A stretch of 64,000 bases of DNA from Sediminibacterium sp. Gen4 (GTDB lineage: Bacteria; Bacteroidota; Bacteroidia; Chitinophagales; Chitinophagaceae): NCBI GenBank assembly GCA_013391385.1, contig JACBFI010000011.1, positions 25,988 to 89,987 of the forward strand. Reading direction: 5' to 3'. The translations under genes and the position numbers were made by a program. Below the pieces are notes generated by a model, which saw only the letters and a list, made by a program, of their open reading frames with translations, was not told the DNA's origin and searched no databases. Within the stretch, counting starts at the first letter, position 1, and each line of letters starts with the position of its first letter. Shown one piece after another: positions 3,872-22,695 of this stretch.

Positions 3872-5287
3872 ATGAAAAATCTTTTGACATTTATTGCTCG
3901 CTTACATGGTATCGCGATTTGTTTTGTGATCATGACAATGGCTAATTCCTGTGCGAATATGATACCTCCCAGTGGAGGTCCAAAAGATAGTTTACCCCCA
4001 CGGTTGGTGATTGCCAATCCCAAAGACTCGGCTACCAATGTGAAGACCAAAAATATCCTTCTTACGTTTGATGAATTTGTGTCTTTACAGAATACAGAAA
4101 ACATCATTTATGCTCCTGTTCCCAAGAGTCTTCCGCAGGTTGATTATAAACTGAGAAATATAACCGTTCGCTTCAGAGACTCTCTCGAAGAAAACACCAC
4201 TTATTCTATTGATTTCGGAAACAGTATTATAGATGTGAATGAAAGCAACGTGGCGAAAAATTTTCGATATGTTTTTTCTACCGGACCTGCTATCGACTTC
4301 AATACCTATGAGGGTAAGGTATTGGTAGCTGAGACGGGTAAGGTAGATAGTACATTAATTGTTGTATTACACAAAAACACTTCAGATTCTGCGATCGAAA
4401 AACTAAGCCCCCGTTTTTTTACCAGAATTGATGGTAAAGGTGCTTTCAAATTCAACAACCTACCTGCGGGTACATTCGCAGCTTATGTTGTGAATGGAAA
4501 AAGCTATAACAAAGTTTTTGACAGCAGTTCACTTTTTGCTTTCAGGGATTCTTTGGTACAAATTGGCAGCAATAGTAACAGGATCGATACTTTTTATGCT
4601 TTTACACAATCCATTCCTACCGATAAGAAAGCGATGGACCCGTCCAGTAGCTTACCTCCTTCTTTGCGAGACGATAAACGATTACGCTATATCGCCATAT
4701 TAGACAATGGTATGCAAGATCTTCTCAGCGATTTTAAGATGGTATTCAATAGAAAAGTATTTTCATTGGATACCGGAAAACTGAGATTAACAGATAATGA
4801 TGATGTACTACAAAAAGGATATACAGTTACCTTGGATAGTCTCCGAAAAACATTCACCCTTCGCTACCCTTGGAAAGAAAACACTACTTATAAATTGATC
4901 ATTCAAAAAGATGCTGCATTAGATAGTAATGCCACTTCACTTTCCAAAACAGATACATTGCTCTTAAGTACGAGAAAGGAAACAGAATACGGCAGTGTGC
5001 GTTTTCGCTTTCTGAATGTTGATACCAGTCAGCATGCTGTATTACAACTCTTTCAAAATGATGAACTAGTAGCTTCTTATCCCATCAACCAAAATGATAT
5101 TCAGATCCGTCGCTTTAAACCGGGTAGTTATGAATTGAGAATTTTATATGATGAAAATAAAAACGGTAAATGGGATACCGGAAGTTTTACACCTGTCAAA
5201 AAGCAACCGGAAAAAGTATTTTATATCCCTCGACAGCTAAATATCCGAGCAAACTGGGATAATGAAACCACGATTGCGTTGCAATAG
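3872..5287 (+). CDS. Ig-like (Big_5) domain lipoprotein
   Basis: This 471-residue envelope protein has a signal peptide ending in a lipobox (MANSC, Cys about 27). The lipobox is followed by the segment PPSGGPKDSLPPRLV, which I recognise from a widespread Bacteroidota lipoprotein family. Next comes a Big_5/SbsA-like Ig domain (residues about 45-135) with NVKTKNILLTFDEFV and LEENTTYSIDFGNSI. The rest is beta-rich and includes a second segment typical of Ig-like folds, KENTTYKLIIQKDAALD, and a C-terminal DENKNGKWDTGSF motif resembling a calcium-binding loop. The role is unknown; a structural surface lipoprotein is the best guess. It follows the helicase gene by 64 nt and is followed by a large inverted repeat. 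Confidence 0.75.
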   Translation: MKNLLTFIARLHGIAICFVIMTMANSCANMIPPSGGPKDSLPPRLVIANPKDSATNVKTKNILLTFDEFVSLQNTENIIYAPVPKSLPQVDYKLRNITVRFRDSLEENTTYSIDFGNSIIDVNESNVAKNFRYVFSTGPAIDFNTYEGKVLVAETGKVDSTLIVVLHKNTSDSAIEKLSPRFFTRIDGKGAFKFNNLPAGTFAAYVVNGKSYNKVFDSSSLFAFRDSLVQIGSNSNRIDTFYAFTQSIPTDKKAMDPSSSLPPSLRDDKRLRYIAILDNGMQDLLSDFKMVFNRKVFSLDTGKLRLTDNDDVLQKGYTVTLDSLRKTFTLRYPWKENTTYKLIIQKDAALDSNATSLSKTDTLLLSTRKETEYGSVRFRFLNVDTSQHAVLQLFQNDELVASYPINQNDIQIRRFKPGSYELRILYDENKNGKWDTGSFTPVKKQPEKVFYIPRQLNIRANWDNETTIALQ

Positions 5288-5288
5288 G

Positions 5289-5413
5289 CTATAAGCTGCA
5301 AGCCACACGCTACAAGCTACAAGGAAGAGACAGGAGACAAGCTACAAGCTTTGTACACCTAGATTACTGATTACCTCACTTGTAGCTTGTAGCGTGTGGC
5401 TTGCAGCTTGTAG
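5289..5413. repeat. Intergenic inverted repeat of GCTACAAG/GCTGCAAG words
   Basis: The arms are 35 nt long (5289-5323 and 5379-5413) and differ at one position. Each is made of near-tandem words such as AAGCTGCAAG, CCACACGCTACAAG and CTACAAG. It starts 2 nt after the stop codon at 5287 and reaches nearly to the recR promoter, so it probably works as a terminator. Confidence 0.85.
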
Positions 5414-5435
5414 CTTTCTCACTTATCTTCGCACC

Positions 5436-6050
5436 ATGCAACTCCCCTCCTCACTTTTAGAAAATGCAGTAGCGCAGTTTTCCAAACTCCCGGGTATTGG
5501 GAAAAAAACGGCATTACGATTGGTGTTGCATTTGTTAAAGCAGGAAGTAAATGAAGTGCAGCATTTTGGTGAAACCATTGCACGTATGCGGAGGGATATC
5601 AAGTTTTGTCAACGTTGCCACAATATCAGCGATGGCGATATTTGTTCTATTTGCTCCAACTCCATGCGCAATCAGCAAATGATTTGCGTGGTAGAAAATA
5701 TAAGAGATGTGATTGCTATAGAAACCACCCAGCAATTCAATGGGTCTTACCATGTACTAGGCGGTATCATTTCTCCCCTTGATGGTGTTGGTCCTGAACA
5801 GTTAAGCATCGAATCACTTGTTCAGCGTATAGAGAAAGAAAAGACTGAGGAAATTGTTTTTGCTTTGAACCCAAATATCCAAGGAGATACTACTATCTAT
5901 TATATCCAGAAAAAAATTGCACATCTTCCTTGTCGCATTACCACCATTGCCCGAGGCATTGCTTTTGGGGGCGACCTAGAATATGCGGATGAAATGACCC
6001 TCGCAAAGAGCATTGCGAATCGACTTCCGGTGCAACAATATGTGAAATAG
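5436..6050 (+). CDS. recR: Recombination mediator protein RecR
   Basis: The 204-residue protein matches RecR in length and layout. An N-terminal helix-hairpin-helix (SKLPGIGKKTALRLVLHLL) is followed by a C4 zinc finger (CQRCHNISDGDICSIC) and a Toprim domain (ICVVENIRDVIAIE, then YHVLGGIISPLDGVGPEQL). The C-terminus is the family-typical RGIAFGGDLEYADEMTLAKS. RecR acts with RecF/RecO to load RecA on gapped DNA. I chose the ATG at 5436 because the homology begins MQLPSSLLENAV; the upstream in-frame extension is translated repeat DNA. A TATCTTCG box lies at 5424-5431. Confidence 0.96.
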   Translation: MQLPSSLLENAVAQFSKLPGIGKKTALRLVLHLLKQEVNEVQHFGETIARMRRDIKFCQRCHNISDGDICSICSNSMRNQQMICVVENIRDVIAIETTQQFNGSYHVLGGIISPLDGVGPEQLSIESLVQRIEKEKTEEIVFALNPNIQGDTTIYYIQKKIAHLPCRITTIARGIAFGGDLEYADEMTLAKSIANRLPVQQYVK

Positions 6051-6233
6051 GTGATTTTTGCCCAAAAGCAACCTTTCTTTCCCCTTTTCGTAATAGTTCA
6101 TATAAACAAGATCGACTAATTTGCCGTTTAAACATTGAATTTTTCTAGGAACAGCATTTGTTTTATCTTTTGATCTGTAATCGGTAATGAACTAAAACAA
6201 AAAATAACTGTTTCTTTCATTCAAATCAAGTGT

Positions 6234-6833
6234 ATGGAAATATCAGGTTTAATGGCAGGATTGATCAGCACAGGCATCATTTGGTTGATCTTGATGATCA
6301 TATCAGTGATTGCAGTATCGAAAAGAACAGATCTGGATAAGAACCAGCGACAAAAATGGATGATCATAGTAGCGATTCTTCCGTTTCTGGGTCTATTGAT
6401 ATATGTGATCACCAACTTCAGCAAAGCTAAGAAGTTGTTATGGTTAGGAATAGCGGGCGCTGTTTTATCTGTTGCGGCAACTGTATTTTTTGTTTACAAT
6501 CGCAAGCATGAAGATGTGAGTCAGAAAGAAGGGGTAAAAATGACTGCTCAGCAATTATTCGATGCTTTCAAAGCAGATGAAAACGCCGCCAACCTTTTGT
6601 ACCTGGATAAAGCAATAGAATTGTCGGGCGAGATATTAGCAGTAAATACAAACCAGGATGGTCAGGTTGTCGTAGATATAAAAACAAATGATCCATTTGT
6701 AGTGATCAATTGTACTTTTAAGACAGATCCGGGTGCATTGACTGTAGGACAAAACATTACATTCAAAGGCTTTTGCAGGGGATATATTCCCGATGCGAAT
6801 GTTGTTATCAACGATGGTATTTTAGTAAAATAA
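6234..6833 (+). CDS. Membrane protein with PLD-nuclease N-terminal-like hydrophobic region and OB-fold (tRNA_anti-like) domain
   Basis: The 199-residue protein has three hydrophobic segments (about 5-28, 43-62, 68-87). The second and third, with QRQKWMIIVAILPFLGLLIYVI, resemble the PLDc_N membrane hairpin. The C-terminal half (about 100-199) contains MTAQQLFDAFKADENAANLLYLDKAIELSGEI and FKGFCRGYIPDANVVINDGIL. That is the pattern of the tRNA_anti-like OB-fold family, which is common in Bacteroidota and mostly uncharacterised. The OB domain probably lies outside the inner membrane. It ends 13 nt before the yceI-like gene and may be co-transcribed with it. Confidence 0.7.
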   Translation: MEISGLMAGLISTGIIWLILMIISVIAVSKRTDLDKNQRQKWMIIVAILPFLGLLIYVITNFSKAKKLLWLGIAGAVLSVAATVFFVYNRKHEDVSQKEGVKMTAQQLFDAFKADENAANLLYLDKAIELSGEILAVNTNQDGQVVVDIKTNDPFVVINCTFKTDPGALTVGQNITFKGFCRGYIPDANVVINDGILVK

Positions 6834-6846
6834 GAAAGGAAAGATT

Positions 6847-7371
6847 ATGAAGAAAATTATCGGACTTTTATCATTAGTTCTTTTAATCGGAATACAAGCC
6901 GATGCACAGAAGATATTTGGAACACGGAATGGAAAGATCACTTTTGAATCACCGACAGATGGTGATGTGAAAGCTGTGAACAATGAAGTGACCAGCAGAA
7001 TAGCTGACAATGGACAGCTCACATTCAGTATGCTGATCAAAGGTTTTAAATTCAAATATGCAGAAATGCAAGAGCATTTCAATGATCAATATGCTGAGAG
7101 CAGCAAGTTTCCAAGAGCTGATTTTAAAGGCAATATTGTGAACCTGAAAGATGTGAATTTCACAAAAGATGGAAGCTATCCCGTAACGGTAAAAGGAGAT
7201 CTGACCTTGCATGGTGTTACTAAAAACATCACCGTAAAAGGGAATATTGAAATCAAAGCTGGAAAGCCAAGTGCCAAAGCTGGATTCGTGATCAATCTGA
7301 GCGATTTTAAAATCGATGCATCTTCTGTTACAGAAAAAGTAACAGTAGATATCAACTGTCAATACCAGTAA
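6847..7371 (+). CDS. YceI-family periplasmic protein
   Basis: This 174-residue protein has a signal peptide (MKKIIGLLSLVLLIGIQADA) and one YceI lipocalin-like domain. Recognisable parts are KITFESPTDGDVKAVNNEV, FPRADFKGNI and VKGDLTLHGVTKNITVKGNI; the last is the most conserved YceI motif. YceI proteins bind polyisoprenoid-type lipids in a beta barrel. It lies between the OB-fold gene and the DUF5777 gene (25 nt gap). In Bacteroidota, YceI and DUF5777 proteins often sit together near c-type cytochrome systems, which hints at a respiratory role; this is inference. Confidence 0.9.
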   Translation: MKKIIGLLSLVLLIGIQADAQKIFGTRNGKITFESPTDGDVKAVNNEVTSRIADNGQLTFSMLIKGFKFKYAEMQEHFNDQYAESSKFPRADFKGNIVNLKDVNFTKDGSYPVTVKGDLTLHGVTKNITVKGNIEIKAGKPSAKAGFVINLSDFKIDASSVTEKVTVDINCQYQ

Positions 7372-7396
7372 TCATTATCACCATAAAAACACCTGT

Positions 7397-8308
7397 ATGA
7401 AGATCTTATCTAAAAGGTCTATGGCTATTTTTTGCCTAACCCTTATCACATTTAGTGCTGTTGCACAAGAAACAGACCTGTTTAAGATGCAAGACAGCAC
7501 TGCTGCTGCTGAAGACAAAAACAGAACTGAAAAAACACTCAACACTTTTTATTCTACACGCTTGGTAACCACACAAACGGTAGAAATAACCGGCAAAGGG
7601 AGTATGGACTTTCGCATCAACCACCGTTTTGCTCCTTTAAACCAAGGCTTCTATAATTTATTCGGATTGGATTTTGTTGCCGCACGTATTGGTTTTGATT
7701 TTGGATTAGCAGAAAATCTGATGATCGGTATCGGTAGAACCGGAACCAATAAGGAAGCAGATGCTTTTATCAAATACAGACTTCTCAGACAAAGCAGTGG
7801 TGTGAAAAATGTACCGGTATCGGTTTCCCTCTTAGGTTCTGTGATGTATCGTGGTTTACGCTACGCTGATCCAACTTTGAATGTAAAAACCCAAGACAGA
7901 ACCTATTATACGGCACAATTAATGGTGGCGCGTAAGTTCAATGAAAACACTTCTTTACAAATCTCTCCTACCTATACCCGATATAATCGAATTCTGTTCC
8001 TGTCTGGGGGTGCAAAAGACCTTTTCTCTATAGGCTTTTTAGCCAGACAAAAAGTGAGCAAGCGTGTAAGTATCAATGCCGAGTATTTTGTGCAGACTGA
8101 GCGTTTCGACGGCACGTATAATCCATTATCCATTGGAGTAGATATACAAACAGGTGGGCATGTCTTCCAATTGCATTTCACCAATTCTATAGGTATGAAC
8201 GAACATACTTTTATTCATGAAACTTTTGGATCATGGGGCAAAGGGGATATACGCTGGGGTTTTAATATCTCCCGTATATTTAATATCGGTCGAAAGAAAA
8301 AAGCTTAA
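7397..8308 (+). CDS. DUF5777-family beta-barrel protein
   Basis: The 303-residue protein carries a signal peptide (cleavage near SAVAQ). Its amphipathic strands include TVEITGKGSMDFRINHRFAPLNQGFYNLFGLD and, at the end, GDIRWGFNISRIFNIG. This fits the DUF5777 family, predicted to be a small outer-membrane barrel or periplasmic beta protein. No enzymatic motif is present. It is the last gene of the run 6234-8308 and is followed 17 nt later by a strong intrinsic terminator. Confidence 0.75.
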   Translation: MKILSKRSMAIFCLTLITFSAVAQETDLFKMQDSTAAAEDKNRTEKTLNTFYSTRLVTTQTVEITGKGSMDFRINHRFAPLNQGFYNLFGLDFVAARIGFDFGLAENLMIGIGRTGTNKEADAFIKYRLLRQSSGVKNVPVSVSLLGSVMYRGLRYADPTLNVKTQDRTYYTAQLMVARKFNENTSLQISPTYTRYNRILFLSGGAKDLFSIGFLARQKVSKRVSINAEYFVQTERFDGTYNPLSIGVDIQTGGHVFQLHFTNSIGMNEHTFIHETFGSWGKGDIRWGFNISRIFNIGRKKKA

Positions 8309-12711: not shown

Positions 12712-14049
12712 TCACCTTCTAAACAAACCTCTCCATTGATAGAAAAGCCGATCTGCTAAAGTGGCTTCAGCAGTTATAACTTCAGCGGTACCCGTTAAAT
12801 TATTACTAAATTGAACCACCCTATTGTAATTAGTATTTAATCCTCTATTCAATTGAACTCTAATTAAAAATACAGAGTCTTTATATGGAACTGCTGGTAT
12901 ATTTTCGATAACTCCCTTTAATACACCATATTCATTTCTTTGATAACTATTCAAAGCAATATTTACTGATTGCCCTATTGTTAGCTTACCAAAATTTTGT
13001 TGCGAAGCAATGATTTCAGCAAAATATTCCGGCTGCTCAGGGATGATATAAAATAACTCCTGTCCTACTTTTACCCAGCTATTCTTTTGAAAATAATTAA
13101 TGTACTGCAATCTCCCAGTTTCACTGGCTATTAGCATATACCTGTTAGTCCATTCAGCTATTGAACTTTTGGCATTCAATAAAGCTGTAATAAAATTCTG
13201 GCGAATATCTGAACTATTCTTTTTAAGTTCAATCAATTCCTTTTCTTTGGAGAGCGCATTGGCTGTTTGATTAATCGTACTAGCATCCACCTGCACTAAT
13301 TGCTGCTGTTTGGCCAGCACTATGGTTTTGTCTTTATTCAACTCAAGAGGGGCAATTATTTTTTCTTTTGCTAGTTTTTCGTTTATCCCCAACAGGTTTC
13401 GCTGCATATCTAAATCCTGTACAATTAGCTTCTTTTGTTCTTCTCCATTCAATTGTAGTTGATTAATAATAGCAAGATCTTTAGCTATTGTTGCTTTTTT
13501 TTCCTCAAAATATCCGTTTGGTTGCGACCAACTTAACTGATATAGTTGTTGCTGTATCTCTAAGTAATTTTTTTGCAAATCTCCCAGATTATTCAGTACA
13601 ACTAAGGTTTCAATTGCTGTCCAATTATTATTTATAATTTTTTGCTCAACCCGTTCAATCCATTCTTTTAATACTAACACTTGTGTATAATCGGCATTGC
13701 TTTGTAAAATACCTAGTAAATCTCCCTGATGTACTCGGCTATTTTCTTTAGCAGCTAACAATACCAAACTTCCTTCGGTTTTACTAATCACTTGTTTAGG
13801 TAGGTTTTTGCCAACAATACGAACAGGAGCTTTTATCAAATCCGGATAACGAATAAAAAATGTGACTATAAATAATAATCCTATAATCAGAAAAAATAAT
13901 GCAATTCCATATCGAACAATCCATACAGGTTTACTGCTGATAATCTCTCGCACTTCGTGGCTATAAATACGATCCGCTTCATCTAAGCGTTCAATCTTAG
14001 CGGCCTTGAGCATATCATCCAAACTATATGATTTTTCTTTTTGTGGCAT
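12712..14049 (-). CDS. HlyD-family membrane fusion (adaptor) protein of the peptide exporter
   Basis: The 445-residue protein has a cytoplasmic N-terminus (about 1-45), one membrane segment (YGIALFFLIIGLLFIVTFFI, about 47-66) and a periplasmic part. The periplasmic part holds a biotinyl-lipoyl-like half-motif (ISKTEGSLVLLAAKENSRVHQGDLLGIL), a long coiled coil rich in Q/K/E (about 130-300) and a beta-barrel end with VGQELFYIIPEQPEYFAEI. This is the classic HlyD plan. Its gene begins 10 nt downstream of the ABC exporter gene, so the two form one unit that moves peptides across the envelope. No TolC-like outer-membrane gene is nearby; one is presumably encoded elsewhere. Confidence 0.9.
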   Translation of the reverse strand: MPQKEKSYSLDDMLKAAKIERLDEADRIYSHEVREIISSKPVWIVRYGIALFFLIIGLLFIVTFFIRYPDLIKAPVRIVGKNLPKQVISKTEGSLVLLAAKENSRVHQGDLLGILQSNADYTQVLVLKEWIERVEQKIINNNWTAIETLVVLNNLGDLQKNYLEIQQQLYQLSWSQPNGYFEEKKATIAKDLAIINQLQLNGEEQKKLIVQDLDMQRNLLGINEKLAKEKIIAPLELNKDKTIVLAKQQQLVQVDASTINQTANALSKEKELIELKKNSSDIRQNFITALLNAKSSIAEWTNRYMLIASETGRLQYINYFQKNSWVKVGQELFYIIPEQPEYFAEIIASQQNFGKLTIGQSVNIALNSYQRNEYGVLKGVIENIPAVPYKDSVFLIRVQLNRGLNTNYNRVVQFSNNLTGTAEVITAEATLADRLFYQWRGLFRR

Positions 14050-14058
14050 AGTATGTCT

Positions 14059-16323
14059 TTAATCACCTAGTTCTAATTGATTTTTTACTAAAGTAAAATA
14101 CTCTCCTTTCAAAGCCGTAAGTTCTGTATGTGTTCCTTGCTCTATAATAACTCCGTTGTGTAATACCACAATTTGATCGGCATGACGAACAGTGCTTAGC
14201 CGATGGGCTACTACTATTACTGTTTTACCTTCAAAAAAAAGGTTTAGATTCTTAAGAATGGTACTTTCATTATTAGCATCCAGCGCATTCGTTGCTTCAT
14301 CTAATAAAATGAGTTCAGGGTTTTTATAAACAGCTCTTGCTATGAGTATACGTTGTCGTTGCCCCGCACTTACGCCTGTACCCTCAGTGCCAATTTTTGT
14401 ATTATACCCTAATGGAAGACTTTCTATAAAAGAAGTAATGTTTGCGATTTTTGCGGCATAACGTAATCGTTCTTTATCAGGATAATCTTCTCCTACAGCA
14501 ATATTTTTGGCAATACTGTCAGAGAAAATAAAACTATCCTGCATTACCACACCACATTGTTTACGCCAAGCACGATGACTGATATTAGATAGGTTGAGTC
14601 CAGCAGACTGCGCTATATCACCTACATAGATTTCGCCTGATTTAGTATCATAAAATTTGAGTAAAATCTTAAGAAGAGTTGTTTTACCACTACCGCTGGA
14701 ACCCACTATTGCGGTTATTTTACCATGCGGAATTTGCATACTAATATTTTTAAGCACTGGCTCATTACCAGCACCGGGATAAGTAAAACTAATATTGTAT
14801 AAGTGTAACGATCTGTTTTGTGGTAGTTCACTTACGAGTGGATTGGCGTTGTTATTATTTAGGTTAACAGGCTCCTCATCGGGTAACTTGTGAATTTCAT
14901 TTAGCCTTTCAAGACTTATTTTAGCCAACTGCCAGTTCTGAACAAAACCGATCATTTGCTCAATGGGGGCATTTAATTGACCAATGATATATTGAATGGC
15001 CAGCATAGCACCAAGCGTAATTTGTCCTTGAATAACGGCACTAGCTGCTATAAAAGTGATAAAGATATTCTTGCCTTCATTAATAAAAAATGCACCAGCT
15101 TGTTGCCATTGGTTAAGAGACAAGTTCTTCATACCCAAGCGAAATAATGCAGCTTGTAAATGTTCCCATTGCCAGCGTTGTTGCTTTTCGCTACCATGCA
15201 GTTTAATTTCCTGCATACCTTGGACTAGTTGAATCGAACGGCTTTGCTCAGCTGCTGCTATATCAAATTGCTGATAATCTAGTTGCTTACGCTTTTTCAG
15301 GAATACTAAAATCCAGAATCCATATACAATACTAGCCCCCGAAAATACACCGAAAATAAGCATGTTGTAATTGAGAAGTACTACCGAAAATATCAACAAA
15401 TTAAACAAAGAGAATAGTGTATTCAGTGAGGTGCCGGTTAAAAAATTTTGAATACGTTTATGATCATTCATTCTTTGCAGAATATCGCCGGTTTTTTTAC
15501 TGTCGAAATAAGCCAAGGGTAATTTCATCAGTTTTATAAGAAAGCCGGTTAAAATAGAAATATTAATACGGCTGCTGATATGGTACAAAATCCAGCTACG
15601 AATGAATTCAACACTTAAACGACCAACAAACAATGCTAGCTGCGCCAAGAGAATAATATAAACAAACTGAATATTTTGGGTATTGATACCTACGTCTACC
15701 ACACTTTGAGTTAAGAAAGGAAATACCAGTTGTAATAAGCTACCCAGTATTACCCCTAAGAATAATTGAATCACTAGTTTTCTGTGTGGCCTAAGGTAGC
15801 CCCAAAGTTGGTTGGCATGGTTAGTAGCTACTTCTTTAAAATCTTCCCCATACTGCCTATTATAAAAATTTTGTCCGGGTTCTAATAAAAGAGCAATACC
15901 TGATGCTTCTCCATCTTCACTTTTATCGCTGATCCATTTTTTAAGAAATAAAGATTGATCAATACTGATAATACCAGTTGCAGGATCTGCAATCTTAACT
16001 TTTTGATATTTTTTATTATTAAAAAACCGTTTTTTTTGCGGCAGCAGAATAATAAAATGGTTTTGTCCCCAGTGCAAAATAGCAGGTTTAGGAGCTTCTT
16101 CAAGCAGTTTTGTAAAACTTAATTTGAGTGCTGTTGTTTGGAACCCAATTTTTTCAGCAGCATCGCTAATACCTAATAAGTTTACGCCTTCTTTACCAAT
16201 CTCTGTCAACTCGCGTAACTTTTCCAATGCAAAATAACGGCCATAATGTCTGCTAATCATATACAAACAGGTTGGACCGCAGTCCATCTGATTCTGTTGT
16301 TTTAGGAAAAAAAAAGAGTTCAT
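14059..16323 (-). CDS. Peptidase-C39 ABC exporter for GG-leader peptides
   Basis: The 754-residue protein is a complete bacteriocin-type ABC exporter. The N-terminal C39 protease has QNQMDCGPTC (catalytic Cys15), the catalytic His in GQNHFIILL (His89) and Asp in IADPATG (Asp113). It is followed by a six-helix ABC membrane domain (about 170-450) and an ATPase domain with Walker A GSSGSGKTT (about 540), signature SAGQRQR and Walker B LILLDEATNALD. Such proteins cleave a leader after a double glycine and export the rest. The two substrates are almost certainly the GG precursors at 18004-18204 and 19807-20031. It is followed by HlyD at a 10-nt distance. The 127 nt before it contain no clear promoter. 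Confidence 0.95.
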   Translation of the reverse strand: MNSFFFLKQQNQMDCGPTCLYMISRHYGRYFALEKLRELTEIGKEGVNLLGISDAAEKIGFQTTALKLSFTKLLEEAPKPAILHWGQNHFIILLPQKKRFFNNKKYQKVKIADPATGIISIDQSLFLKKWISDKSEDGEASGIALLLEPGQNFYNRQYGEDFKEVATNHANQLWGYLRPHRKLVIQLFLGVILGSLLQLVFPFLTQSVVDVGINTQNIQFVYIILLAQLALFVGRLSVEFIRSWILYHISSRINISILTGFLIKLMKLPLAYFDSKKTGDILQRMNDHKRIQNFLTGTSLNTLFSLFNLLIFSVVLLNYNMLIFGVFSGASIVYGFWILVFLKKRKQLDYQQFDIAAAEQSRSIQLVQGMQEIKLHGSEKQQRWQWEHLQAALFRLGMKNLSLNQWQQAGAFFINEGKNIFITFIAASAVIQGQITLGAMLAIQYIIGQLNAPIEQMIGFVQNWQLAKISLERLNEIHKLPDEEPVNLNNNNANPLVSELPQNRSLHLYNISFTYPGAGNEPVLKNISMQIPHGKITAIVGSSGSGKTTLLKILLKFYDTKSGEIYVGDIAQSAGLNLSNISHRAWRKQCGVVMQDSFIFSDSIAKNIAVGEDYPDKERLRYAAKIANITSFIESLPLGYNTKIGTEGTGVSAGQRQRILIARAVYKNPELILLDEATNALDANNESTILKNLNLFFEGKTVIVVAHRLSTVRHADQIVVLHNGVIIEQGTHTELTALKGEYFTLVKNQLELGD

Positions 16324-16450
16324 TAGTATTGAAAAACAAGATGATTAAACTATTAGAAGCTCCTAAGAATTGCTTAATTAGAATGCTTTAATATTTAGAC
16401 ATTGAAAAAACGCTTATTTGTTTACAGCTTTATCATTACTGAGGATATAT

Positions 16451-17953
16451 TTAGAATGATTTAAACCAAGAATTCAAATCAGTTAGTAGCTTACTTCCTG
16501 AAGAAGGTCTTGGAGCATCCTTATTCATTATCTTACCAGATTCATCAACTATCAAATATCTTGGTATAGAAAACACTTCAGAAGAGGGATAAAGTTTTTT
16601 TATATCATTAACTAACTTTTCAGACGCTAGTAAATGGATGCCCTCTAAATCATGTCGTTGAATTGTTGTTTTCCATTGTTCAGTATTTTGTGGCAGATCA
16701 ATTGAAAGAAACACCTTTTTTATATTATATGTTGATAAATAGCTGTCGATATTTGTATAGTTCTTAAATTCTTGAATACAAGGAATACACCAAGTTGCCC
16801 ATATATCTACATATAGCCTCTCTTTACCAAGATAATTTGTTAAATCAACAAGGGAAGAAATTGTGATACTACTATCAATAAAAGTGATTTTTTTATTGAT
16901 AGTTATACTATGATTCTTCAGAAAGTTTTTTTCTTTCTCTTTTAAATAGGCAGAATAAATATTTTCTGCTTTTTCAATTTCTTTATAAACAATAAAATCA
17001 TCTTTAGTTATTAATGTAGGCATAGCATTTAAAATATCTATCATAAATCTACCCAGCAAGTAAGATTGTAAATTTTTAGGGGCGTAAAGTATCGGGACAA
17101 AATATTTACTTAGTTTAAACACTTTCTCGTTAATTAGAAATGTCGAATCAGGCATTTGCTCGAGAGAGAGTATTTCGGATTTTTCGAAATATTCTAATTC
17201 AATCATGCCTGCAGTATAGGGAACAGCAAGAACACTTTTGAAAATATTTTCATCGAATGGATTTAAAGTTCTTCTTAGTTTCTCTAGAATTACTTTTTTT
17301 GTCGAGCTACTATTAATATAACTTATTTTATTTAGTGGTTTTAGAGAAATGTCTCTAGCGATTTCTCGCAGAAAAACAGCTTTGAAATTAATTAATACTA
17401 AGTTCCGAAATGAATCACTAATTAGCTTTTCATTATACAAGTCATTATATTTGGAGACATATAAATCAACAATTTGATGAAACTTATCTAATACCTCATC
17501 AATGCTTTGATAATTTTCTTCAATTAAATTCCAAATCGGAGTAAACTTCGCCGTAAAATTTGGGTAAACAAATTGTTCATTAAATAGTTTTATTCCAGCT
17601 GCATTAGATCCTGTAATTTTCATCCAATCAAGATTTACAGGTGCGGAATCACCAAATACTTTTGCATGCAGGTTTAATACTCCATTAGTTTCTGCATATA
17701 CAAAAAAAGGCATGCCATCAAATGATATTTTTATAAACCCATCTTCTTTAATAGGAAAATCAAATGAATGAATACCGGTAGTATCTAAAGTTACAACCCT
17801 TGTAGCCAAAGAATTATTATACCATTTGTTTTCATAAGGGTCAAAAATACTCAATGTAACAGGATGATCTGATTCTAAGCTAATGTTAAGTGTAAACTGA
17901 CAAAAAATTGTGTTTACATTAAACAGACATAATATCAACAATATTGTTTTCAT
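16451..17953 (-). CDS. TlpA-like thioredoxin-domain protein of the peptide cluster (500 aa)
   Basis: The protein has a signal peptide (MKTILLILCLFNVNTIFCQ), a long poorly conserved N-terminal region of about 350 residues and a C-terminal TlpA/thioredoxin domain with the active site WATWCIPC (about 386-389), then VFLSIDLPQNTEQWKTTI and the cis-Pro segment SIPRYLIVDESGKI. It should face the periplasm and reduce or shuffle disulfides. The thioredoxin part shares the SID..EQWK..I pattern with the protein at 18471-19625, so the two are paralogues. It lies downstream of the 66-residue precursor gene, separated from it by an 8-bp hairpin. A role in folding the cysteine-containing peptides, or in keeping them reduced for export, is inferred from context. 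Confidence 0.85.
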   Translation of the reverse strand: MKTILLILCLFNVNTIFCQFTLNISLESDHPVTLSIFDPYENKWYNNSLATRVVTLDTTGIHSFDFPIKEDGFIKISFDGMPFFVYAETNGVLNLHAKVFGDSAPVNLDWMKITGSNAAGIKLFNEQFVYPNFTAKFTPIWNLIEENYQSIDEVLDKFHQIVDLYVSKYNDLYNEKLISDSFRNLVLINFKAVFLREIARDISLKPLNKISYINSSSTKKVILEKLRRTLNPFDENIFKSVLAVPYTAGMIELEYFEKSEILSLEQMPDSTFLINEKVFKLSKYFVPILYAPKNLQSYLLGRFMIDILNAMPTLITKDDFIVYKEIEKAENIYSAYLKEKEKNFLKNHSITINKKITFIDSSITISSLVDLTNYLGKERLYVDIWATWCIPCIQEFKNYTNIDSYLSTYNIKKVFLSIDLPQNTEQWKTTIQRHDLEGIHLLASEKLVNDIKKLYPSSEVFSIPRYLIVDESGKIMNKDAPRPSSGSKLLTDLNSWFKSF

Positions 17954-17965
17954 AAAAGAAAATTA

Positions 17966-17985
17966 GGGCGGTATTACTACCGCCC
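17966..17985 (-). terminator. Hairpin between precursor 1 and its TlpA-like gene
   Basis: A perfect GGGCGGTA/TACCGCCC stem with a 4-nt loop is followed on the minus strand by TAATTTTCTTTT. It lies 18 nt after the precursor stop codon (stop at 18004-18006) and 13 nt before the TlpA start. It may act as an attenuator or partial terminator that limits read-through. Confidence 0.7.
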
Positions 17986-18003
17986 ATCGTTTATAAGTAT
18001 GCA

Positions 18004-18204
18004 CTAAGTTGTTACATCGTGGCAAGATCCTCCATTTGTACAATAGGTATTTATATCGTCCACCATTGTTTGTGGAGTAGGGGTACTTCTATATTCCCAA
18101 GTACCTGGCATGCCAGTACAAGAGCAGACCCATGTACCTCCTCCGATTTTTTTTTGCGCATCTCTATCTAACAATAAACCTAATTTTTCCATTTTTAGAT
18201 TCAT
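18004..18204 (-). CDS. GG-leader secreted peptide precursor 1 (four cysteines)
   Basis: The 66-residue precursor has a leader MNLKMEKLGLLLDRDAQKKI ending in a glycine run GGG (21-23), matching the L..L.R...KKI.GG pattern of Bacteroidota GG leaders. The predicted mature part of about 43-44 residues begins TWVCSC and has four cysteines (27, 29, 55, 61). It is otherwise polar, with no lanthipeptide-like Ser/Thr richness. The leader matches that of the second precursor, and a C39 exporter is encoded in the same run of genes. No modifying enzyme other than thiol-disulfide proteins is present, so disulfides are the likely modification. Activity (bacteriocin or signal) is unknown. Confidence 0.82.
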   Translation of the reverse strand: MNLKMEKLGLLLDRDAQKKIGGGTWVCSCTGMPGTWEYRSTPTPQTMVDDINTYCTNGGSCHDVTT

Positions 18205-18207
18205 AAG

Positions 18208-18365
18208 TATGATTTTTAGCTACTTTGGTTTTGAAAGTAGCGGTTAAAAATGATCCTGCAGCTTAAAGCATCAGCAGATGATTGGCTGGCTCAATCACTC
18301 GTTCGTCAACAAGTGTAGTACCATTGAGCTTCTCTTTCCGGGTACTATTCGAAAAGAAATCTGGT
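18208..18365 (-). ncRNA. Structured 5' leader of precursor 1 (copy of 20035-20190)
   Basis: In the minus-strand RNA three hairpins occur in the same order as in the other leader. H1 is AGUACC/GGUACU (18317-18346). H2 is CACUUGUU-GACG-AACGAGUG (18296-18315). H3 is GCUACUUU/AAAGUAGC (18219-18241), just before the start codon. Between H2 and H3 a linker with AUCUGCUGAUGCUU is conserved. Against copy 2, the H2 stem shows U-A to C-G and A-U to G-C exchanges and H3 shows U-A to C-G, so base pairing has been kept while sequence changed. No known riboswitch class is recognised. Confidence 0.65.
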
Positions 18366-18374
18366 TAATACTCC

Positions 18375-18468
18375 CTAAAGGAACAAAATAACTTACATCA
18401 TTCATTTGATATACTTTGGATATTTCATAGCCCTTAATAAAAATTGTAGGATATGGTTTTAGAAAAAC
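18375..18468 (-). pseudogene. 3'-end relic of a second VKOR-thioredoxin gene
   Basis: The minus strand just after the stop of the TlpA-like gene (18471) reads PYPTIFIKGYEISKVYQMND then VSYFVPLG. The intact VKOR fusion ends TPTIFINGYQLPKTYQIKDI then SYFIS. The homology begins abruptly and no start codon or upstream domain is present, so only the last 30 or so codons survive. It is followed by the same structured leader and precursor gene that follow the intact copy. This shows that the ancestral order was VKOR-leader-precursor-TlpA, duplicated in tandem, with one VKOR later lost. Confidence 0.8.
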
Positions 18469-18470
18469 TA

Positions 18471-19625
18471 TTACGATTTATTTATAAGTCGTTTTAATGC
18501 GACCTCAAGAGTTTCATCTGCTCCAGATTTCCAAACAATTTTACCATCTTGTCCAATAAGCATTCCTGAAGGAATCGGATTATTCACATTATCGTAATTA
18601 TCTTCGATCTCTTTATTTGCGAGTATATTATACCAGTTCCCTATATCATCTTTTACTATTGCAGCTTTCCATTGTTCAATATCTTTATCAATTGAAATTG
18701 TTAGTATTTCAAGTCCATAAGAATGATACTGATTAAATATTTTTTTTAGATTAGGAATTTGCTCTCTACAGGGTATGCACCAACTAGCCCAGAAGTCAAT
18801 ATATAAATATTTACCTCTAAAATCTAATAAAGCAACATTCTTACCCCTGATATCTTGCGCTTTAAAATTATAAGGAATATTCCCTATTACGTTTTGTTCA
18901 AGTTGCTTAAACAAATCTGCAATAAAAACACCATTTATACTCTTTTGTATCCTAGTTGTCAGTTTTTGAAATATTCTTTTGGCTGAATCAACAGGTAATT
19001 GTTTTACTTGAGTGTAAAAAAAATATGGACTAACATATGAATCAGGGTGAGTTAGAACAAATGAAATGACCGCTTGTCTCATCTCCTCTCTTTCTGGTTT
19101 TAACTGCTCTATAAATTCATTAGCTTTTTGCTGAGCCAACTCTTTATCTTCATTTGTGATTGCAATTTTATAAGCATCATTCGCAAGAGCTATTTGTTTG
19201 TACAAATTTTTGTACCTCGCTTTAATAGAGTTTAAACTGATTTTTAAATTATCATATTCATTTTGTGTTCTTGAACCATCGAGCTTCGCAAGTGCATAAT
19301 TGTTTTCGACAAGTTCAATTTTTTGAACTGTAGGTTCAAGAAATATTTCAGTGTAGTTAACATTTTCATAATCAATCATTCTAGTATATCCCTTAATTGT
19401 TGCGAAAACAGGCTCAGGTATTTCACCCTCAAACTGAAAATTTCCGTTTTTTAAAAAGGCAGTATCGCGTATAAATTTTCCGAAACTATTAGTGTATGCC
19501 AGTATAATATATCCAGTATCACGATTATTGACTATTCCCTTGAGTATAAATTTATTTACACTTAGGTTTTGAGAGTACGTCATTGCGACATGCATACAGC
19601 ATGCTGTTAAAATAAATGCTTTCAT
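18471..19625 (-). CDS. TlpA-like thioredoxin-domain protein with DUF4369-like N-terminus
   Basis: The 384-residue protein has a signal peptide (MKAFILTACCMHVAMTYSQ) and an N-terminal DUF4369-like region (FILKGIVNNRDTGYIILAY, then FLKNGNFQFEGEIPEP). A helical linker (about 120-240) leads to a C-terminal TlpA thioredoxin with WASWCIPC (about 282) and GMLIGQDGKIVWKS. This layout is common among Bacteroidota periplasmic oxidoreductases. It follows the eight-cysteine precursor and, with its paralogue at 16451-17953, suggests one thioredoxin per precursor. The dedicated role in peptide disulfide chemistry is inference. Its stop is directly followed by VKOR relic sequence, marking a deletion junction. 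Confidence 0.88.
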   Translation of the reverse strand: MKAFILTACCMHVAMTYSQNLSVNKFILKGIVNNRDTGYIILAYTNSFGKFIRDTAFLKNGNFQFEGEIPEPVFATIKGYTRMIDYENVNYTEIFLEPTVQKIELVENNYALAKLDGSRTQNEYDNLKISLNSIKARYKNLYKQIALANDAYKIAITNEDKELAQQKANEFIEQLKPEREEMRQAVISFVLTHPDSYVSPYFFYTQVKQLPVDSAKRIFQKLTTRIQKSINGVFIADLFKQLEQNVIGNIPYNFKAQDIRGKNVALLDFRGKYLYIDFWASWCIPCREQIPNLKKIFNQYHSYGLEILTISIDKDIEQWKAAIVKDDIGNWYNILANKEIEDNYDNVNNPIPSGMLIGQDGKIVWKSGADETLEVALKRLINKS

Positions 19626-19762
19626 TCTAAAAAATAAGGTTCATAATTTTAAGCACTTTGTTAGAATCAAATTTAAATAACCCCACATCAACTCTACAAA
19701 CTCGTGTAATAATTTTGAAAATAAGGTATAGTTTAACTCTTCATATCTTAAGTAATAAATAT

Positions 19763-19799
19763 AGTCAGAGCAAAATAGAATTTTTATTTTGCTCTGACT
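19763..19799 (-). terminator. 15-bp stem-loop right after precursor 2
   Basis: A perfect stem AGTCAGAGCAAAATA/TATTTTGCTCTGACT with a 7-nt loop begins 7 nt after the precursor stop codon. On the minus strand it is followed by an AT-rich stretch with no long T run. It may stabilise the short precursor mRNA or act as a partial terminator before the TlpA-like gene. Confidence 0.7.
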
Positions 19800-19806
19800 G
19801 CTACAT

Positions 19807-20031
19807 CTAAGGAGTTTGGCACATTTTATCTTGTCCTGGTTTACTTCCAGAGCCATTTCCTGCGTCATCGCAAGTTCCGCATGAACCAGAACAAGTGACA
19901 CCAGTTCCTGTTCCACAATAAACATTACAACAACCGCCAGAGGCACTAGACCCACAATTCGCGCCCCCAACGATTTTTTTCATAGCATTTCTGCTCAATT
20001 GGAGTCCAAAATTTTTCATTTTTTGTTTCAT
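19807..20031 (-). CDS. GG-leader secreted peptide precursor 2 (eight cysteines)
   Basis: The 74-residue precursor has a leader MKQKMKNFGLQLSRNAMKKI followed by VGG (21-23), nearly the same as in precursor 1. The 51-residue predicted mature part is rich in Gly, Ser and Cys, with cysteines at 26, 34, 35, 39, 47, 51, 54 and 71, including a CC pair. An even number of cysteines in a cluster with VKOR and thioredoxins fits a multiply disulfide-bonded product. The mature parts of the two precursors share no alignable sequence, whereas leader peptides and 5' RNA leaders are conserved, as expected when the cargo diversifies. The cleavage site is predicted, not proven. Confidence 0.84.
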   Translation of the reverse strand: MKQKMKNFGLQLSRNAMKKIVGGANCGSSASGGCCNVYCGTGTGVTCSGSCGTCDDAGNGSGSKPGQDKMCQTP

Positions 20032-20034
20032 AAA

Positions 20035-20190
20035 TAAAATTTTTCGCTATTCCTTTTTTAAAATAGCAATTAAGAAATTTTCTGTCAGCTTTAAGCATCA
20101 GCAGATAATTGGCTCACCCAACTACTTATTCGTCAATAAGTATAGTACCATCGGGCTTTTCTTGTCGGGTACTAAGCGAGAAGAAATATT
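20035..20190 (-). ncRNA. Structured 5' leader of precursor 2 (copy of 18208-18365)
   Basis: H1 is AGUACC/GGUACU (20144-20173), H2 is UACUUAUU-GACG-AAUAAGUA (20123-20142) and H3 is GCUAUU/AAUAGC (20046-20067). A linker with AUCUGCUGAUGCUU sits between H2 and H3. It fills the space between the VKOR stop (20200) and the precursor start (20031). Compared with the other copy, the loop GACG and the linker are conserved while stem bases co-vary. It could be a regulatory RNA, an RNA processing site separating VKOR and precursor messages, or an internal promoter region. Confidence 0.65.
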
Positions 20191-20199
20191 TTTCTTCTT

Positions 20200-21837
20200 C
20201 TAAGAGATAAAATAGCTTATATCTTTTATTTGATAAGTTTTAGGTAATTGGTAACCATTAATAAAAATGGTCGGTGTAAATTGAATATCAACCTCATCAC
20301 ACCATGCTTTCATTTTGCTAAGTTTTTCATTTTGTTTTATGAGTTCCCCATTCATAGGGTATTTAGCTGCAAAAGCATCATAGTCTTTTTGAGATGCTAA
20401 ATACCAGTCGTCCAATGCTTGATATGTAATATGTTCATCTCCTTTTTCAGCAATAGCTAATAAATGTTTTACCGGCTTTGCAGCCCTATCATTTTCATTA
20501 TTGGTGGCAGTAAAAATAATTTGGGCTTTTACTTCAGGATTTTGTTCTATAATTTTATCTAATTCTGGATGTGCTGTTGCGCAAGGTCCACAATAAGGGT
20601 TGCACACCTTAACAATGGTATGTTTGGCTTGGGGGTTGCCAATTGTTATGCCTAAGCCATCTGTTGAATTGTCAATGATAGATGGTTGTTTATACAGTAG
20701 TGACCAAAATACCTCATCATTATACTTTAATTGTAGGTAATTTCTTTTTTCGTATTTAGATGCTTGTACCCTTTTTAAAATAGGTTTCAATAAAAACCAA
20801 ATGGTAATGGGTATGACTATTGCTAAAGCGATTGAAATTATATTGGAAGCTAGTATAGCTTTTATAGCTGGTAATGATATTTCGGAATTAATGGCAACTA
20901 ACAATCCTTCTGAAAATAATACACCCTGCACCATTAAACAAAGTACACACCATTGTTTGGCTACCTTCGCTTGGTAATACAATGAGAAGATAATATAAGG
21001 CAGTGCCAGTAAAGAAAACAAACTCAATAAGGGTAATACTGTATTTATTCCCACAAAAGCTGCCACCAATAGAGACCCTGCAAAATAAATAAAGCCAACT
21101 TCACTCCATGTAATTAGCCCCCAAAGAGTTGCCGCTTTGGTATTTAATACTGCACTACAATTGGCTTTTTGTATACCCGAACAGATTTGTTTTAATAAGG
21201 GGTTACCCTTATCAATGTCGTACCAAAGAAGTAAAACTGAAGCTGCCAAACCTATTAATTTTGCTAATAAATACGTGGTAGCAACTAAAGTAACCGTACC
21301 ATTTATATAAGGTATCAATATGGCAGCTAAAAGTACGAGAGGGATTAGTGTATAAAAACACTTTTGTACTAATAAGCGATTTAATTTTTTATGATAGTCA
21401 GGTTCCCCCGAAAACTCATTGGCTTCTGCTACCAAAATAGTCTCTGTCCATAATTTCAGAAACTCATCCTTAGTAATAATTTTCTTCTTCCCATTTTGGT
21501 TAATGATAGTTAGTTTCTCACCCATCAACTTTACTACTGTTACAAAAACTCCATTTTTATAGGTAGTAATAAATGGGATAGGTATTTCGTGCAATTTGTC
21601 AGCTACTGTTTGAATTGCTATGCTTTCTACTTTCCATTTTTGTAATGAATCTGAAATAGATAAAAAACTGGGATAATCAGGATGAGCTTGCAAGGTATCA
21701 TTAATGGTATGCAGGTTAACTTTCACTTTCAGCTGCTTTAATAGAGCAGCTACCGCTAATACCTGGTTTTCATACAAGCTTTTAAATAATACACCCGATA
21801 GCATAATCTTAATTGAGTGATTAAACTTCCAAGTCAT
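20200..21837 (-). CDS. VKOR-thioredoxin fusion with C39-like N-terminal domain
   Basis: The 545-residue protein has three parts. Residues about 15-140 resemble a peptidase-C39 fold (AHPDYPSFLSISDSLQKW, then TIINQNGKKKIITKDEF) but lack the catalytic QxDC, so this part may only bind leaders. Residues about 160-360 hold the VKOR membrane domain with cysteine pairs ICSGIQKANC (about 220) and WCVLC (about 294). Residues about 385-545 form a DsbA-like thioredoxin with NPYCGPC (about 415) and cis-Pro TPTIFI. VKOR fusions oxidise the thioredoxin and pass electrons to quinone, so this is a periplasmic disulfide maker. The start at 21837 is supported by the relic at 12539; Met12 (21804) is an alternative. 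Confidence 0.88.
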   Translation of the reverse strand: MTWKFNHSIKIMLSGVLFKSLYENQVLAVAALLKQLKVKVNLHTINDTLQAHPDYPSFLSISDSLQKWKVESIAIQTVADKLHEIPIPFITTYKNGVFVTVVKLMGEKLTIINQNGKKKIITKDEFLKLWTETILVAEANEFSGEPDYHKKLNRLLVQKCFYTLIPLVLLAAILIPYINGTVTLVATTYLLAKLIGLAASVLLLWYDIDKGNPLLKQICSGIQKANCSAVLNTKAATLWGLITWSEVGFIYFAGSLLVAAFVGINTVLPLLSLFSLLALPYIIFSLYYQAKVAKQWCVLCLMVQGVLFSEGLLVAINSEISLPAIKAILASNIISIALAIVIPITIWFLLKPILKRVQASKYEKRNYLQLKYNDEVFWSLLYKQPSIIDNSTDGLGITIGNPQAKHTIVKVCNPYCGPCATAHPELDKIIEQNPEVKAQIIFTATNNENDRAAKPVKHLLAIAEKGDEHITYQALDDWYLASQKDYDAFAAKYPMNGELIKQNEKLSKMKAWCDEVDIQFTPTIFINGYQLPKTYQIKDISYFIS

Positions 21838-22056: not shown

Positions 22057-22695
22057 ATGATATCGTTAATGATGTGCGATGATCATGTGATGCTACGCGA
22101 CATGATATTGGGGGTTTTAGAAAAAGAACATGGATTTTCTGTTTGTGGAAGAGTACAAAGCGGTGAGGATTGTATTCGTCAAATTGAACAAGGTAGTATA
22201 CCTGACCTTCTCATTTTAGACATTAGTTTACCCGAAATGCCGGGTTATGAAGTAGCCAGATACTTAAGAGAAAAGTTCCCGCAAATTAAAATACTGGTAT
22301 TCTCAATTATCACTGATTATGCCGCTGTAAAAGCAATGATACGTTTTGGAGTTGATGGGTTTGCATTTAAAGATATTACGCCATCGTCTATCGCATCCAT
22401 CATACATTCAATAATGGCTGGTGAAACATACTACCCTCCGGATTTTATGTTTACAGCCCAAGAAATTGAAGCCATAAAAACAACCGCGATTCCTTGGGCT
22501 GAACATATTACCCAAAGAGAAATGACGGCAGTAAAATTATTAGCGAAAGACTTGTCAAGAAAACAAGTTGCCTATCAAATGGGTATATCACCATCTGTTG
22601 TAAACAAAAAAATTGACAATATTTTCAAAAAAACTGGACATAGAACCACTCTTTCTGTTGTTGATTTTTTAAAAAGAGTAGGAATTTTATCCTGA
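22057..22695 (+). CDS. NarL/LuxR-type response regulator
   Basis: The 212-residue protein has an N-terminal receiver domain (MMCDDHVMLRDMI, phospho-acceptor Asp in LLILDISLPEMPG near residue 55, conserved Ser/Lys in FSIITDY and AFKDIT). The C-terminal HTH starts ITQREMTAVKLLAKDLSRKQ and continues VAYQMGISPSVVNKKIDNIF. The HTH is somewhat divergent from the canonical GxSxxTVxxH helix. No histidine kinase is adjacent, so its partner is unknown. It is transcribed divergently from the peptide cluster across a palindrome-rich region, which makes it the best candidate regulator of that cluster. A near-consensus TATATTTTG lies at 21994-22002. Confidence 0.9.
   Translation: MISLMMCDDHVMLRDMILGVLEKEHGFSVCGRVQSGEDCIRQIEQGSIPDLLILDISLPEMPGYEVARYLREKFPQIKILVFSIITDYAAVKAMIRFGVDGFAFKDITPSSIASIIHSIMAGETYYPPDFMFTAQEIEAIKTTAIPWAEHITQREMTAVKLLAKDLSRKQVAYQMGISPSVVNKKIDNIFKKTGHRTTLSVVDFLKRVGILS

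Follow-up and report, generated by a model that had tools for sequence, protein, structure and literature searches.

A modular Sediminibacterium locus predicted to make disulfide-bonded exported peptides from RNA-led cassettes

Gene content of the locus

The window analysed here is a 64,000-nucleotide stretch of the freshwater bacterium Sediminibacterium sp. Gen4 (Chitinophagaceae; GenBank assembly GCA_013391385.1, contig JACBFI010000011.1, positions 25,988 to 89,987 of the forward strand). Positions 12712-21837 of the window hold seven genes on one strand (-): a fusion of C39-like, VKOR and DsbA domains, two precursors of small peptides with double-glycine (GG) leaders, two TlpA-like proteins (Tlp1 and Tlp2), an ATP-binding cassette (ABC) exporter with a C39 peptidase domain, and HlyD. 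A conserved stretch, an RNA element of approximately 108 nucleotides (nt), precedes both precursors. An earlier note on this DNA had described the seven co-directional genes and their domains, all of which are present according to open reading frames (ORFs) and Pfam; the RNA element, the cassette array and the fusion topology go beyond that note. It is fairly probable that this is a modular locus making small disulfide-bonded exported peptides, most likely bacteriocins, by means of RNA-led cassettes and a constant exporter. The features are listed below, with RNA scores from the covariance model R2 (see below).

12712..14049, (-): HlyD-type adaptor (HlyD_3)
14059..16323, (-): C39 peptidase ABC exporter (Peptidase_C39, ABC_membrane, ABC_tran); C15/H89/D113 present
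16451..17953, (-): Tlp2, TlpA-like thioredoxin (WATWCIPC) whose N-terminal part matches no Pfam family; signal peptide by eye
18004..18204, (-): precursor 2, with a GG(G) leader and a core with 4 Cys
18255..18362, (-): RNA element 2 (114.6 bits), upstream of precursor 2
18379..18462, (-): remnant of about 25-28 codons, similar to the 3' end of a second VKOR-fusion gene
18471..19625, (-): Tlp1, DUF4369 plus TlpA-like thioredoxin (WASWCIPC); signal peptide by eye
19807..20031, (-): precursor 1, with a 23-aa GG leader and a 51-aa core with 8 Cys
20081..20189, (-): RNA element 1 (105.3 bits), pseudoknotted (P1/PK/P2/P4/P5), upstream of precursor 1
20200..21804, (-): C39-like/VKOR/DsbA fusion oxidase, 534 aa from M12 of a 545-aa ORF; 6 predicted transmembrane (TM) segments
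22057..22695, (+): divergent response regulator (RR) of LuxR/NarL type, which co-occurs with the array

The fusion scores 49.6 bits with Peptidase_C39, 53.2 with VKOR and 51.6 with Thioredoxin_4, and probably starts at M12 (window 21804), where most of its same-genus relatives start. Tlp1 and Tlp2 both match Thioredoxin_8/Redoxin, with DUF4369 in Tlp1 only, and are thiol oxidoreductase-type genes adjoining the peptide genes. Neither a lanthipeptide dehydratase or cyclase nor a radical-SAM enzyme was found among the seven operon genes with Pfam and NCBIfam, the rest of the window not having been scanned, and none of the operon genes is recognisable as a known immunity gene. Far from the locus, at window 49411-50016, lies an OmdA/YdeI-type gene (the 'bacteriocin-protection' family of Pfam), with no apparent link to the locus.

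Conservation of the gene set

The earlier note had named a lack of precursor-VKOR-Tlp-C39 linkage in related genomes as the finding that would speak against it. The linkage in fact recurs in Sediminibacterium, and the note's reading of the products as disulfide-rich secreted peptides is supported on this count. In an author-chosen panel of 25 genomes of the genus, comprising 11 of the 14 in which the RNA element was found and 14 of the 133 others, an exporter orthologue (79-87% identity; 100% in the own genome) is present in 11/11 RNA-positive genomes versus 0/14 others; exporter paralogues at 46-54% identity occur in two of the 14 RNA-negative genomes. Similarly, the RR (E <= 1e-40) is found in 10/11 versus 0/14. 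In whole loci of the genus, the gene order is a LOG-family gene, the divergent RR, at least one unit of VKOR fusion, precursor and Tlp, then the exporter and HlyD. Several units stand in tandem in S. salmoneum. A search of 150 relatives with the VKOR fusion gave a match at E <= 0.001 in 19 of them, of which 15 are in the same genus (own genome included) and four, elsewhere, are weak and partial.

The set also extends beyond the genus. A protein search of plasmids identified a related fusion in eight records, and a peptidase-domain ABC transporter lies nearby in all four of the related-fusion loci examined. For instance, an Emticicia plasmid carries the fusion followed by a small AG-leader gene and a TlpA gene, the same set with a C39 exporter. 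A Parabacteroides distasonis plasmid (L160, 8926-16739) carries the fusion, a small AG-leader gene, a Tlp annotated as DUF4369/thioredoxin, LanC, two glycosyltransferase-type genes and a C39 ABC transporter, and at this locus the oxidase appears to join other tailoring as well. The disulfide-only character that the earlier note had proposed thus describes the seven operon genes, but not the distant fusion relatives, which sit with LanC and glycosyltransferases.

RNA-associated precursors

Among 53 RNA elements scoring at least 46 bits, which include the 42 used to build R2, 44 are followed on the same strand, 26-86 nt downstream, by a precursor with a GG or AG leader. Of the remaining nine, four lie directly before a Tlp-like gene and two at the end of a contig; a DUF4372/DDE transposase gene takes the place of the precursor behind one (L103, 4676-5791), another heads a decayed cassette whose precursor frame contains an in-frame stop (L111, 9832-10240), and the last is followed by nothing recognisable.

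The two window leaders, each about 23 aa, share the pattern L.L.R...KKI.GG. The pattern as written in the earlier note, L..L.R...KKI.GG, matched no ATG-initiated ORF of 45-110 aa in the window. Among the 103 such ORFs, the tight shared pattern matches just the two precursors; because it was written from these two leaders, this is a test of rarity and not an independent discovery. Across 465 pairs of 31 units, the median pairwise identity is higher in leaders (0.43) than in cores (0.26) and Tlps (0.25). Core identity reaches 0.77 or more in five pairs, and these are also the five that rank highest in Tlp identity (0.80-0.97).

The number of Cys is even in 35 of 38 RNA-associated non-redundant cores (<70% identical; binomial p = 3.3e-8), whereas counts of nine other residues, taken as controls, are even in 17-25 of the 38. 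These counts derive from 43 of the 44 precursors, the pattern having missed L039:10203, and the precursor script required at least four Cys. Even Cys counts fit with disulfide bonds in the peptides. An ORF with a thioredoxin-type CxxC motif lies within 700 nt downstream of 31 of the 43 script-scored precursors. Proteins of approximately 600 aa occupy the Tlp position behind a GG precursor in L032 (14136-15932), L039 (16064-17899) and L110 (550-2370); they match no Pfam family above its cut-off and are possibly another type of partner.

The fusion oxidase and its orientation

The exporter retains Cys15, His89 and Asp113, as the earlier note had stated. When the C39-like domain of the fusion is aligned to it, there is a gap at C15 and a residue other than His at H89 in 25/25 homologues, in agreement with the dead domain proposed previously; a Cys stands beside the gap in 3/25 (the window fusion not among them), and D113 is Asp in 3/25. 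The domain therefore looks catalytically dead. A structure model of the fusion was obtained from 11 sequences (mean predicted local distance difference test score, pLDDT, 77.6; predicted template-modelling score, pTM, 0.42); with an overall pTM this low, no reliance should be placed on how the model arranges the domains. In the model, the N-terminal domain matches double-glycine protease domains, including 6mpz, which was solved with a leader peptide (TM-score 0.77 on the target), as well as the C39-like domain of HlyB (3zua), which is catalytically dead. The C-terminal domain matches ScsC/BdbD/DsbA. The C39 and C39-like domains of exporters (6mpz, PCAT1, HlyB 3zua) are thus alike in fold to the N-terminal domain of the fusion, but they ride on a transporter, whereas that of the fusion rides on an oxidase.

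Six hydrophobic segments in the fusion are matched by helices in the structure model, and with six TM segments both terminal domains come to lie on the same side as the VKOR Cys loop and the CxxC motif. On that active side, the mean number of Lys+Arg per flank is 3.2, 4.48, 2.0 and 5.36, as compared to 0.2, 0.24 and 0.8 on the opposite side (25 homologues, 12 close relatives). Since known VKOR structures were not found by sequence, VKORs from the family and phylum searches served as charge controls; 44 were handled, five were dropped for lack of landmarks, and the 39 scored were grouped by length only. Lys+Arg on the active side exceed those of the opposite loop in 18/19 long VKORs (>=500 aa; means 5.84 versus 0.42), 2/12 of middle length (2.08 versus 2.42) and 2/8 short ones (1.75 versus 1.12), that is, 18/19 long fusions versus 4/20 other VKORs. 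The N-terminal domain, of approximately 130 residues, has no evident signal peptide by eye. From the positive-inside rule and this missing signal peptide, the active sites of the long fusions are predicted to face the cytoplasm. Such an orientation would fit with one-step export by the ABC exporter and HlyD, and it would put a leader-binding-type domain where the leaders are. There may be a parallel in the archaeal VKOR of Aeropyrum pernix, which Hibender and colleagues reportedly described in 2017 in two compartments and which is reported to be able to serve cytoplasmic disulfide formation; the window VKOR differs in being fused to C39-like and DsbA domains and in being tied to a peptide exporter.

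Several points speak against a cytoplasmic orientation. The cytoplasm is a reducing environment, and periplasmic Tlps are hard to place, since they fit poorly with one-step export past the periplasm. The topology rests on hydropathy and the positive-inside rule, and the opposite-side loops are short. Additionally, one long fusion (L178) in this group, defined by length, disagrees in charge, and two stand-alone VKORs, L174 and L183, share the charge pattern of the long fusions and lift the short-group mean; these two may also face the cytoplasm. Alternatively, the fusion could be oriented like ordinary bacterial VKORs, with periplasmic active sites, and the peptides would become oxidised in the periplasm, either before they pass to the outer membrane or while they do so. 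Bacterial DsbA-type enzymes, including the closest folds ScsC, BdbD and DsbA, are known to act outside the cytoplasm, the Tlps carry signal peptides by eye, and the stand-alone VKORs show no clear opposite charge bias in their mean (1.75 versus 1.12). However, the N-terminal domain of approximately 130 aa would then have to cross the membrane before TM1 although no signal peptide is evident in it, Lys/Arg-rich loops would have to lie outside in 18/19 long fusions, and ABC/HlyD exporters are thought to bypass the periplasm. This orientation is a serious candidate, although a doubtful one.

Exchange of cassettes between species

Comparison of synonymous divergence (dS) between genomes shows recent exchange in two pairs of species. 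Between G011 and G037, dS is low within the cassette (precursor 0.085, Tlp 0.016) as compared to its surroundings (VKOR fusion 0.26, exporter 0.41, RR 0.56, HlyD 0.89, LOG saturated). Similarly, between G061 and G064 it is 0.031 for the precursor and 0.070 for the Tlp, versus 0.19 for the exporter, 0.43 for the VKOR fusion and 1.54 for LOG; the precursor values are rough because these genes are short. Therefore, precursor and Tlp travel together and apart from the VKOR gene ahead of them, which supports the earlier suggestion that each precursor has its own thioredoxin. With such exchange between species, the repertoire of products turns over fast. The window remnant before the second unit is likely to be the scar of a cassette exchange.

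In L031 and L032, pieces of the C39 exporter gene are found between the cassettes, which suggests that insertion has occurred there repeatedly or that exchange at this gene has been unequal. In L031 (S. salmoneum), a carboxypeptidase-regulatory-like protein, whose match falls just under the Pfam cut-off, and an outer-membrane beta-barrel protein are located between the RR and the first VKOR fusion (5114-7985). A separate movement of core and Tlp away from the leader was considered for unit L037:14263 and set aside, as the leader is truncated as called (TTG start); the dS comparison was used instead.

Relationship to known systems and nature of the products

The closest known system is that of the bacteroidetocins, class IIf bacteriocins of Bacteroidales (PMC6671954). 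In their loci a five-TM protein comes first, then a GG peptide with 4 Cys, a thiol oxidoreductase and, last, a C39-type transporter. The same kinds of gene are clustered in the window locus (a GG-leader precursor, which has 4 Cys in bacteroidetocins A and B, an oxidoreductase for thiols, a protein with several TM segments and an ABC transporter of C39 type), which appears to work as the bacteroidetocin loci do. In contrast, the bacteroidetocin leader has 15-16 aa as opposed to about 23 aa in the window, and the window locus has HlyD, cassette exchange and an RNA element. The five-TM protein is described there as unknown. Because leader length differs and an antibacterial activity is a prediction, the window locus is not filed as a bacteroidetocin. 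A second likeness is to the maturation disulfide isomerases of PedC/BrcD type in pediocin-like clusters, where a dedicated thioredoxin-type protein also stands beside the gene of a disulfide bacteriocin (PMC13289728); the window has instead a DUF4369/TlpA-like protein, divergent per cassette, plus a VKOR oxidase. Bacteriocin production has been suggested by a Sediminibacterium genome (PMC9258536), and GG precursors of Bacteroidales have already been linked with C39 transporters (PMC10352776). Among the matches listed, no title or abstract opening describes the RNA, or a C39-VKOR-DsbA fusion together with GG precursors, which does not prove absence in print.

The Tlp could instead serve its cassette as an immunity protein that reduces the disulfides of the peptide made there and so inactivates it. 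Precursor and Tlp are exchanged as a unit, with low dS for both in two species pairs. Moreover, Tlp genes stand right behind an RNA element with no precursor in L035 (17893-19086), L036 (4127-5320) and L037 (2836-4029), and at a ratio of non-synonymous to synonymous divergence (dN/dS) of 0.13-0.14 they appear to be kept under purifying selection, persisting in three genomes in the manner of orphan immunity genes. However, a folding enzyme would likewise travel with its substrate, and two further Tlp comparisons, with few changes, gave dN/dS of 0.56 and 0.81, so that selection is not uniformly strong. In bacteroidetocin loci, activity was attenuated when the gene for either the TM protein or the oxidoreductase was deleted, and no protection came from either protein; the oxidoreductase beside the peptide was needed for full activity (PMC6671954). 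A role in immunity is rather unlikely.

It is slightly less likely still that the peptides are signals or other extracellular products and not bacteriocins. The RR does co-occur with the locus, and the operon genes include no evident known immunity gene. In contrast, fast turnover, hypervariable cores and orphan partner genes resemble antagonism and not a shared signal, and the closest tested relatives kill bacteria (PMC6671954).

The structured RNA element

A short-motif search for the conserved stretch gave 19 instances, of which 16, collected in alignment A2, fold into P1, a loop-strand pseudoknot, P2, P4 and P5. Two covariance models were used: R1, which holds no pseudoknot, and R2, built from 42 members. 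Alignment A4 (42 rows) leaves aside the duplicate sources L051 and L117 and the sources L041 and L116, and the partial element L035:6973 fell under its cut-off. Among the 42 members, standard pairs fill 95.3% of cells, versus 82.2 in shuffles and at most 48.0 in slid versions, and both-sided changes occur in 28/36 pairs (shuffle mean 16.9; reached by 0/500). Because the 42-row alignment was fitted to the helices of R1, P1, P2, P4 and P5 are favoured in these figures; the pseudoknot, with both-sided changes in 4/7 pairs, is not, R1 having held none.

The cells contain 95 G-U and 21 A-C combinations, and this excess indicates that the sense strand is the one selected to fold. It is very improbable that the element instead works at the DNA level, as a folded site of the recombination by which cassettes move: it does lie at cassette joints, and cassettes move, but the 95 G-U versus 21 A-C cells are as expected if the sense strand folds as RNA, the element is just upstream of the precursor and on its strand in 44 cases, no integrase was noticed in the arrays (though no systematic search was made), and homologous recombination between conserved stretches of DNA would need no special site.

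With R1, 14 of 147 genomes of the genus were positive, with 34 matches (one of which, G081:C23:136218, lies outside the stretches analysed), as were 7/294 in a family sample that included the own genome, where one 27.9-bit match was later judged false. With R2, positives numbered 14/394 genomes and 10/101 genera in a family sample, 6/248 in an order sample (all within the family) and 4/296 in a phylum sample, two of these judged false; the family, order and phylum samples overlap. Matches at 31.1 and 28.7 bits outside the family, and at 26.4 bits in L116, were considered false because no precursor lies behind them, and are outside the 53. A known RNA family was also sought: in Rfam 15, neither the window region (E up to 1) nor two distant members (E up to 10) gave a match at the gathering cut-off, all matches being sub-threshold. 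A simple switch by swapping of the invariant GCCAA, which lies behind P2, into that helix was likewise rejected, since P2 varies in distant genera while GCCAA mostly stays, so that this pairing is not what conserves GCCAA. In topology the element recalls the Pistol ribozyme, in which a hairpin loop pairs with a strand between two stacked helices; the window RNA, however, has no Rfam match, and no cleavage is claimed for it. The sequence patterns point to a new class of structured, pseudoknotted RNA, for which a role in precursor expression is suggested.

Proposed mechanism and implications

Overall, each cassette would consist of a structured RNA and, behind it, a precursor whose leader is conserved and whose Cys-rich core is hypervariable, in most cases together with a TlpA-like protein. 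The cassettes would be served by copies of the VKOR fusion that are shared or duplicated and by one constant C39 ABC exporter with HlyD. The RNA, in the 5' untranslated region, would set expression of the precursor. The dead C39-like domain, whose fold a model supports, would then hold the leader as the C39 domains of exporters do, and the VKOR and DsbA domains, placed in the cytoplasm by charge and TM count, would form the disulfides of the core. The exporter, whose active-site residues are present, is expected to cut after GG and to export the folded core, and the periplasmic Tlp may proofread or reduce its own peptide. Finally, precursor and Tlp appear to be swapped between species by recombination, as the comparison of relatives suggests. 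The general statement, that a Bacteroidota membrane oxidase with a dead C39 domain catches the leader and installs disulfides in the cytoplasm for pre-folded export through the C39 exporter, and that many such precursors of Chitinophagaceae are also controlled by a new pseudoknotted RNA at the head of exchangeable cassettes, is offered tentatively, its prospects being a little short of even.

Some findings do not sit easily with this scheme. Certain precursor-like genes of the same genus lack the RNA element, and no RNA was found beside the fusion relatives of Emticicia, Parabacteroides and Spirosoma (three loci, L159-L161); therefore, the RNA is not essential to this kind of system. For 8/43 precursors the next ORF has no CxxC motif, and for 4/43 no ORF was detected. 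In addition, between G011 and G067 the Tlp dS (0.32) is close to that of LOG (0.36), and hence not every cassette is a recent arrival.

If the proposed mechanism is correct, it would be a way of making disulfide peptides inside the cell under the guidance of the leader, and would ease the puzzle of how peptides exported in one step are oxidised. The RNA would provide a sequence handle for finding short precursor genes, and is a new candidate for work on regulators or riboswitches. The exchangeable cassettes would likewise form a natural collection of Cys-rich peptides, each with a partner protein to match.

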